DNA of 64,000 bases, from assembly GCA_013289835.1 (NCBI GenBank), contig JABCZG010000008.1:124001-188000 (forward strand). Direction: 5' to 3'. Of the stretch, positions 2,778 to 7,329 are shown piece by piece (position 1 is the stretch's first letter; each line of letters begins with the position of its first letter). Made by a program: the position numbers and the translations under genes. This stretch comes from Acidobacteriota bacterium. GTDB taxonomy: Bacteria > Acidobacteriota > Terriglobia > Acidiferrales > UBA7541. The notes beneath the pieces are model-generated. The model was given only the letters and a program-made list of their open reading frames with translations, did not search any database and was not told where the DNA came from.

Positions 2778-4151
2778 TCAACTGTGAATCGTTGACGGCA
2801 AACGTTCGAACGGCCATTGTCGCACTTCTCGCGCGCGAATGAAAAATGCGAGCGCGCCGAGGGCAATCTCCGCGAGTCCCCACTTTCGCGATGCCCCCGT
2901 CTGCCAGAAGAGCCAAGCCCAGCCGATCATGGTCAGGACCGCAGGGAGCGGATAAAGCCACATTTTAAAGGGCAATCCCGCGGTCCCCTTGCGCTTGCGC
3001 AACAACATCACTCCCACGGCTTGCCCGATGAACTGAACCAGGAGGCGCATGGCGAGAATCCCCGCGATGGCTTCCTTGAGTTTCAGCGAGATGCTGAAAA
3101 TAAAGGCGAGTCCTGCAAGGACCAAAAGCGAGATGTGCGGGAAATGCTTGGTGGGATGCACGCGCGCAAATACCGGGAAAAAATTCCCGTCGCGCGCCGC
3201 GGAATACGGCACACGAGAAGCGCCCAGCAGGACCGAAAAGGCCGAAGCGACCGCAATCCACAAAATCATGCCGGTCACGAAGCGCGCAGCGGCCTGACCG
3301 TAGAGCCGCTCGACAAACAGGCTGGCGATGAAATCGGAGTTCTGCGCTTCGCGCCAGGGCACCACTCCCAAGATGCTCGTCTGCAACGCGAGATACAGGA
3401 TGGTGATTCCCAGGACGGAAAGAAAAATGCCTCGGGGGATGTTGCGCTCGGGATCCTTGATTTCACCGCCGAGGTGGCAGATGTTGTAGTAGCCCCAGTA
3501 GCTGTAAATCGTGCTTACCATCGCGGACCCCAGCCCTGCGAACCACAACCACGACAGGTGAAACGCCCCCGGCGGAAAATCGAATGCAATTTTCGCGTTG
3601 AAATGACTCATGCCTCCCCAAATCAGCCAAAGCAAAGTCGCGACAACACCGACCCAGAGCAGTACGGAGATTTTTCCGATGGTGGTGATGCGGCGGTAAA
3701 GAAGAATCACGAGAAAAATGACGAGGCCGCCGGAAATGGATTTCGAGGCGAGCGGGGAAAGCGGATGGAGATAGCCGGCGTACTTGGCGAAGCCGATGGA
3801 GGCGGAGGCGACGGAGAGCGGTGCCTGGACAAACGTTTGCCATACGAACAGAAAGGACATCAAGCGTCCCCAACGCTGCGGCCCGTAGGCTTCGCGCAGG
3901 AAAACGTACGTGCCGCCGGCTTTTGGCATTGCCGCGCCAAGCTCGGACCAGACAAACGCGTCGAGCGTCGCCAGTAGCGCTCCGGCCAGCCAGGCGATTA
4001 AGGCTTGCGGGCCGCCCATGGCGCGGATCACCAGGGAACTGACCACGAACGGGCCAATTCCGACGATCTCGATCATGTTGAGCGCGACGGCCTCTTTCAG
4101 GCCCAGGCCGCGTTCGAGACCCGTGCTTTCCGGTTTGATTTCAATCGCCAT
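2778..4151 (-). CDS. APC superfamily amino acid permease
   Basis: A 457-residue inner-membrane protein with about 12 hydrophobic segments. The N-terminal part has the family pattern: a charged leader, LGLKEAVALNMIEIVGIGPF in helix 1 (unwound glycine region), then WLAGALLATLDAFVWSELGAAMPKAGGTYVFLREAYG, which contains the conserved loop around helices 2-3. Members import amino acids or polyamines by H+ symport or antiport; the substrate is not evident. I chose ATG 4151 because the upstream GTG at 4184 adds only 11 poorly conserved residues; neither has a strong ribosome site. The gene probably shares a transcript with the downstream deacetylase. Confidence 0.85.
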   Translation of the reverse strand: MAIEIKPESTGLERGLGLKEAVALNMIEIVGIGPFVVSSLVIRAMGGPQALIAWLAGALLATLDAFVWSELGAAMPKAGGTYVFLREAYGPQRWGRLMSFLFVWQTFVQAPLSVASASIGFAKYAGYLHPLSPLASKSISGGLVIFLVILLYRRITTIGKISVLLWVGVVATLLWLIWGGMSHFNAKIAFDFPPGAFHLSWLWFAGLGSAMVSTIYSYWGYYNICHLGGEIKDPERNIPRGIFLSVLGITILYLALQTSILGVVPWREAQNSDFIASLFVERLYGQAAARFVTGMILWIAVASAFSVLLGASRVPYSAARDGNFFPVFARVHPTKHFPHISLLVLAGLAFIFSISLKLKEAIAGILAMRLLVQFIGQAVGVMLLRKRKGTAGLPFKMWLYPLPAVLTMIGWAWLFWQTGASRKWGLAEIALGALAFFIRAREVRQWPFERLPSTIHS

Positions 4152-6617: not shown

Positions 6618-7163
6618 TTAATTCCGATCAAGGGCAGCGAGGAGCGTGGCGGGAGTGGCGTTATCGCCAAAGGTTTTGCTGAGGTGGGCGAAGCGATCGA
6701 GGTTTCCGGGGGCGAAGATGAAGCTGCCGCCGAGCTGGAAGGGATTCCGGCCAAGTTTGTGCTGCTGGTGGCCGGCGGCGCGAGCGCGCTTGCGACTTTC
6801 GAAATTGTCGCTGCGAAGCAAGTGAAGCAAATTGGCGGAACGCAGGCCAGCGATGGCATAGGCCTTGCGCTGTTCATCCACGAGCAGAGGAAATGTGATG
6901 CCGGTTTCTTCGCGGAAAAAGCGGGCGTAGTTGCGGTCGCCGAGGCCGATGGCGGCGAGAGAAGCGCCTTTGTCCAGGAAGGCTTGCTGGTGTTCGCGCA
7001 ACTGCGCGACATGTTCGCGGCAAAAGATTCAGCCATAGTGGCGAAGAAACACGATGACGGCGGGCTGGCTCTCCCACAGAGAACCGAGGCGAATTTCCCG
7101 GCCGTCGGAGTCGGGGAGAACGATGTCTGCGAGCTGCTTGCTGAGACTTTGTTTCACGTCCAT
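6618..7163 (-). CDS. selenocysteine-containing peroxiredoxin-like protein (AhpC/TSA, PRXL2/SelL-related), UxxC active site
   Basis: Reading from ATG 7163 the frame is open to TAA 6618-6620 except for a single TGA at 7031-7029, codon 45. Translated through it as selenocysteine (U), the protein has 181 residues. The context is FLRHYG-U-IFC-REHVAQLREH, which is the family's FLRHFG-C-xx-C-RE motif with the first Cys replaced by U (U45, C48). A thioredoxin-fold core follows: the GASLAAIGLGD strand, then ITFPLLVDEQRKAY and GGSFIFAPGN, all typical of AhpC/TSA-like PRXL2 proteins (Pfam AhpC-TSA_2). Similarity continues without a break on both sides of the TGA, so this is not a frameshifted or dead gene. 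A hairpin right after the TGA fits a bacterial SECIS (separate entry). Such proteins are thiol/selenol-dependent redox enzymes, probably reducing peroxides or disulfides in the cytoplasm. The gene stands alone. No selA, selB, selC or selD lies in this window, so the machinery must be elsewhere. No good ribosome site precedes the ATG. An uninterrupted antisense frame (6684-7208, plus) is a shadow. Confidence 0.87.
6994..7009 (-). promoter_or_regulatory. candidate bacterial SECIS hairpin for UGA decoding
   Basis: On the minus strand, 19 nt after the TGA, TCGCGC pairs perfectly with GCGCGA around the 4-nt loop AGTT: six base pairs, five of them G-C. There are 25 nt between the UGA and the loop. 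Bacterial SECIS elements generally have a small apical loop carrying a G in its first two positions, about 16-37 nt after the UGA, and this hairpin fits on both counts. It would bind SelB in the coding region. It also encodes residues that are well conserved in the family, so part of the pairing could be coincidental. Confidence 0.65.
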
Positions 7164-7329
7164 CTATCATTGAAGAGCCGGCATCTGTCTGTCAAGGATT
7201 CGCACTGATCGCATTTTTCCCTAGTGTGAGGTGGCGGATTCGTTTTCGATTCCGCTTCATCTAATGCAGGCTGCGGCCGATAAAACGCATTGGGCGGTAA
7301 CGCAACGGAACGGCTAAACGGGCGTCATC

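Follow-up and report, generated by a model that had tools for sequence, protein, structure and literature searches.

Selenoprotein L (SelL) of fish and ascidians is an AhpC/TSA-like protein with a thioredoxin fold, in which selenocysteine (Sec) is the first residue of the redox motif. Canonical peroxiredoxins carry the motif PxxxTxxC around the peroxidatic residue. Among bacteria, the catalogued selenoproteins include peroxiredoxin-like (Prx-like) proteins with UxxC or UxxU motifs and AhpC/TSA proteins (PF13911) with UxxS (PMC13188914, PMC9312934). Selenoproteins have been known in Acidobacteria since 2006 (PMC1794560). The initial annotation of this locus remarked that some Acidobacteriota use selenocysteine. 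SelL-related proteins of the NCBIfam family NF040769 are not named in the published selenoprotein catalogues (2026 catalogue). We found nothing specific in the literature on SelL-related bacterial selenoproteins or on PRXL2 proteins with selenocysteine, a result that is weak evidence given the partial coverage of the search.

The window analysed here is a stretch of 64,000 nucleotides from an Acidobacteriota genome. Comparison with related sequences suggests, with a probability that we put at about 96%, that a gene on its minus strand encodes a selenoprotein, an oxidoreductase of the SelL-related/PRXL2 group in which Sec is inserted at the UGA at 7031-7029 by means of SelB, tRNA-Sec and a hairpin. 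The initial annotation had already read the locus as a hidden selenoprotein, and this reading is supported by the conserved TGA, the exchange of Cys and Sec among homologues, the Sec machinery of the genome, the SECIS signature and the family. The protein shares its superfamily and the position of Sec, first in the motif, with the catalogued Prx-like and PF13911 selenoproteins. However, the catalogued PF13911 member has UxxS where the window protein has UxxC; some of the catalogued PF00578 entries with UxxC may belong to the subfamily of the window protein. The gene would represent a selenoprotein of a kind already known, in a subfamily that is perhaps undescribed.

The interrupted frame and its protein family

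The minus-strand frame at 6618-7163 consists of 181 codons with a single internal stop, the TGA at 7031-7029 (residue 45), in the context FLRHYG-U-IFC-RE; translation thus confirmed that this codon lies at the first position of the CxxC site. A TGA-interrupted frame of such size is, by itself, no evidence of a selenoprotein, because the window contains 207 TGA codons for which the open stretches before and after each reach at least 25 codons, with a total of at least 110. What raises this frame above chance, in the sequence comparison, is that homologous sequence extends both before and after the TGA and that the TGA is conserved in nearly all orthologues.

The true start is probably the GTG at 7157-7155, two codons downstream of the ATG at 7163, because the orthologues that lack a start codon at codon 1 have GTG or ATG at codon 3 and because a promoter-like site ends only 2 nt before the ATG. 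This site, TTGACA-18-AATGAT, is the best of the region (10/12) and combines a -35-like hexamer at 7190-7195 (minus strand), for which TTGAC is found upstream in 21 of 49 orthologues, with a -10-like hexamer at 7166-7171 (minus strand), which ends 8 nt before the GTG. Its position would imply a nearly leaderless mRNA. The 181-codon frame of the initial annotation therefore translates with one TGA as described, but its start should probably be moved; the coding sequence would span 6618-7157 with the stop codon at 6620-6618, and the product would have 179 amino acids with Sec at residue 43. Residue numbers below are counted from the ATG.

The read-through protein matched Pfam AhpC-TSA_2 at 57 bits and AhpC-TSA at 48.5 bits and, with C standing for U, it matched NF040769 (SelL-related redox protein) over nearly its full length at 126.6 bits, compared to a cut-off of 120. 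These matches bear out the earlier observation that family similarity continues in the same frame on both sides of the TGA. The members of the NF040769 model may contain Sec or Cys; the clade of the window protein is almost entirely of the Sec form.

Human PRXL2B (prostamide/prostaglandin F synthase; PDB 9us9/9usa) is the closest solved structure by sequence, and it is also the best PDB match of the AlphaFold model (pLDDT 91, pTM 0.88), with Z 22.9 and an rmsd of 1.9 over 160 residues for 9usa. In this alignment U45 and C48 take the place of C44 and C47 of PRXL2B, the pair that is mutated in 9usa, and the TGC at 7020-7022 (minus strand) encodes Cys48, the partner (resolving) cysteine. The protein thus has the thioredoxin-like fold and a U..C pair aligned to the C..C pair at the position typical of PRXL2 (FAM213). 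However, the two proteins are only about 20% identical, PRXL2B has Cys in place of Sec, and its eukaryotic substrate is unlikely for the window protein. In comparison with SelL, the AhpC/TSA-like fold and the Sec at the first motif position are shared, while the UxxU of SelL proper is replaced by U-I-F-C at residues 45-48. The canonical peroxiredoxin motif is absent, residues 38, 42 and 45 being V, H and U. The protein is a SelL-related/PRXL2-type thioredoxin-fold redox protein; of the family first proposed, the SelL-related/PRXL2 and AhpC/TSA-like affinity stands, but a canonical peroxiredoxin it is not.

The UGA could alternatively be a true stop, separating two genes or serving regulated termination, so that a peptide of 42-44 residues would be followed by re-initiation at the TTG at 7001 and a protein of 127 residues. 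Both open pieces exist mechanically, and the fragment at 6618-7001 (minus strand) is indeed found where the initial annotation had named it, as is the antisense frame at 6684-7208 (plus strand). However, the break would split a single continuous domain within its active-site region, the Cys homologues are uninterrupted, and the SECIS-like signature described below would have no reason to exist. We consider this explanation very improbable; partial termination beside Sec insertion is possible.

Conservation of the TGA codon and of a downstream hairpin

A search of the GTDB family revealed, in addition to the window gene, 14 close orthologues of full length, each with one TGA. We also scanned genome contigs with patterns placed downstream of the Sec codon, which made the scan blind to the identity of that codon, and obtained 55 loci. 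The TGA was present at exactly the same codon in 48 of the 49 distinct orthologues, which belong to many genera, mostly of Acidobacteriota, and Cys48 was kept in all 49. The single exception (L087) has GGA, encoding Gly, at bases 3998-4000. Its SECIS-like hairpin is intact and its genome contains selA; the Gly codon is due either to recent loss of Sec or to an error in the sequence.

The deeper homologues have either Cys (L025, L027, L124, L139, L144 and others) or Sec at this site, as the initial annotation had expected, and the Gly of L087 was the only deviation. Both forms occur within Fimbriimonadaceae, with Cys in L124 and Sec in L123, and the Cys-form L027 sits inside a Sec clade of the tree. 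The phylogeny of 82 sequences, built with FastTree, midpoint-rooted and containing several weak nodes, separated a clade of 58 sequences (support 0.94) without any Cys member from a clade of 24 in which Cys and Sec are mixed.

Some other loci were unusual. Two SelL-related proteins, L147 (1501-1983, minus strand) and L152 (1501-1980, plus strand), have two TGA codons each and would read RHLA-U-LP-U-RDH and RHLA-U-LP-U-REH, respectively. The resulting UxxU is the motif of animal SelL; the two genes come from two acidobacterial genomes of one genus, both with selA and selB. A truncated remnant, L071 (1501-1824, genome G024), retains only the C-terminal part (query residues 72-179), unrelated sequence having replaced the N-terminal half that included the Sec codon. 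A Cys-form gene (L127, 4001-4357) on a contig titled Methanoregulaceae archaeon is almost identical to the Fimbriimonadaceae gene L124, which is probably a binning error. The plasmid records searched gave distant matches only.

By the published rules, bacterial SECIS elements have a stem of 4-16 bp that closes an apical loop of 3-9 nt; this loop lies 16-37 nt downstream of the UGA and carries a G among its first two nucleotides, and the energy is at most -7.5 kcal/mol (PMC13188914). A putative element, UCGCGC-AGUU-GCGCGA, lies at 6994-7009 on the minus strand. Its stem of 6 bp begins 19 nt after the UGA, the loop AGUU follows the UGA by 25 nt and has G at its second position, and the energy is -9.4 kcal/mol, all within the published limits. 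When the orthologues were scanned at -7.5 kcal/mol, 42 of 49 passed, compared to 7.5% for control codons taken from these genes; none of four Cys homologues passed. Some deeper Sec members (L026, L028, L029) also failed this simple scan.

The synonymous codons at the hairpin are frozen over codons 52-56. The maximum is at Leu55, which is TTG in 49 of 49 orthologues against a background of 15%; Ala53 is GCG in 98% (background 28%) and Gln54 is CAG in 100%. Only Ala53 and Leu55 exceeded 1 bit among the 75 codons examined. Such a freeze cannot be explained by selection at the protein level. The variation in the stem mostly preserves pairing (G-C to G-U or A-U, and C-G to U-G or U-A), with full compensations to A-U in L036 (stem UCACGC-AGUU-GCGUGA) and to U-A in L117. 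When the single sequence was folded against shuffles, the hairpin was not unusual (z of -0.1 to -0.7), and therefore our assignment of a SECIS element rests on the codon freezing and on the comparison of orthologues. A search of the window against Rfam at gathering scores gave no match.

It could be argued that the locus is a pseudogene or carries a sequencing error, in which a Cys codon was broken by a point change, given that one base separates TGA from TGC or TGT and that the sequences are mostly from metagenome assemblies. This seems extremely improbable, because the TGA is shared among the orthologues across independent assemblies and many genera while the rest of the protein is conserved, because the clade is without any Cys member, and because the freeze of synonymous codons lies downstream of the TGA. 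A base error at 7029-7031, which the initial annotation had considered as a possible refutation, is likewise very unlikely, as independent assemblies of dozens of species have the same TGA.

Selenocysteine machinery in the genome and its relatives

The genome of the window carries selB (356.9 bits), selA (572.8 bits), selD (345.4 bits) and a tRNA-Sec with the anticodon TCA, so that all four components that the initial annotation had proposed to look for were found. Its selD (L012, contig 6, 110778-111740) itself has one internal TGA, at the catalytic/Sec site KAAG-U-AAK. About 3 kb from selB, the same contig contains a second TGA-containing AhpC/TSA-like protein (L056, 1501-1782; contig 6, 34263-34544) with the motif SADW-U-PFC, and other TGA-containing members of this superfamily occur in many relatives.

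We tested 45 genomes of relatives for selA and selB, 31 with the Sec form and 14 with the Cys form. All 31 Sec-form genomes had selA or selB at high score (selA in 30, selB over the cut-off in 29), and the exceptions (G025, G020 and G103) were 73-85% complete. Five of the 14 Cys-form genomes (G046, G204, G265, G273 and G342), all 99% complete, had neither selA nor selB over the cut-off. Genomes with neither gene were thus of the Cys form only (hypergeometric p = 0.0016, a value that ignores phylogeny). Nine further genomes reached via the loci, including that of L087, all had selA.

TGA conservation alone cannot name the inserted residue, and the UGA might be read by a near-cognate tRNA or be reassigned to Trp, Cys or Arg, but this is hardly credible in view of the tRNA-Sec and selA, selB and selD in the genome, the use of UGA as an ordinary stop in orthologues such as L032 and L034, the Sec-form genomes, of which none lacks both selA and selB, and the Cys found as the homologous residue.

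Proposed mechanism and biological meaning

Under the selenoprotein reading, the hairpin downstream of the UGA would position SelB with Sec-tRNA-Sec for the insertion of selenocysteine at 7031-7029, yielding a thioredoxin-fold oxidoreductase of the SelL-related/PRXL2 group with 179 residues (181 from the upstream ATG). The selenolate of Sec45 may act as the nucleophile on an oxidised or peroxide substrate, and Cys48 would then attack to form a selenylsulfide, which cellular thiols or thioredoxin would reduce. Other UxxC thioredoxin-fold enzymes follow such a selenylsulfide route; for the window protein, we infer the insertion of Sec, the catalytic cycle, the substrate and the reductant. Most likely, the enzyme would reduce peroxides or disulfides, with thioredoxin as its source of electrons. 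We also looked for a conserved operon by comparing six neighbouring proteins of the window with the 55 loci; only two of them matched, in one locus. Therefore, we draw no function from the neighbouring genes.

Tentatively, and at somewhat less than even odds, the clade of 58 sampled sequences (no Cys, one Gly) may represent a Sec-locked bacterial PRXL2/SelL-type lineage across Acidobacteriota, which includes UxxU members paralleling animal SelL and whose sister clade interchanges Cys and Sec. If this is true, the clade would be a bacterial counterpart of the diselenide enzyme, and its UxxU members would be relevant to how the diselenide motif of animal SelL arose. The two clades would provide a natural comparison of the benefits of Sec and Cys in one enzyme, and the lock on Sec would imply a function for which Cys is insufficient, in a largely soil-dwelling group. 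Acidobacteriota are among the commonest soil bacteria, and standard annotation splits or loses such genes, so that their use of selenium is easily underestimated.
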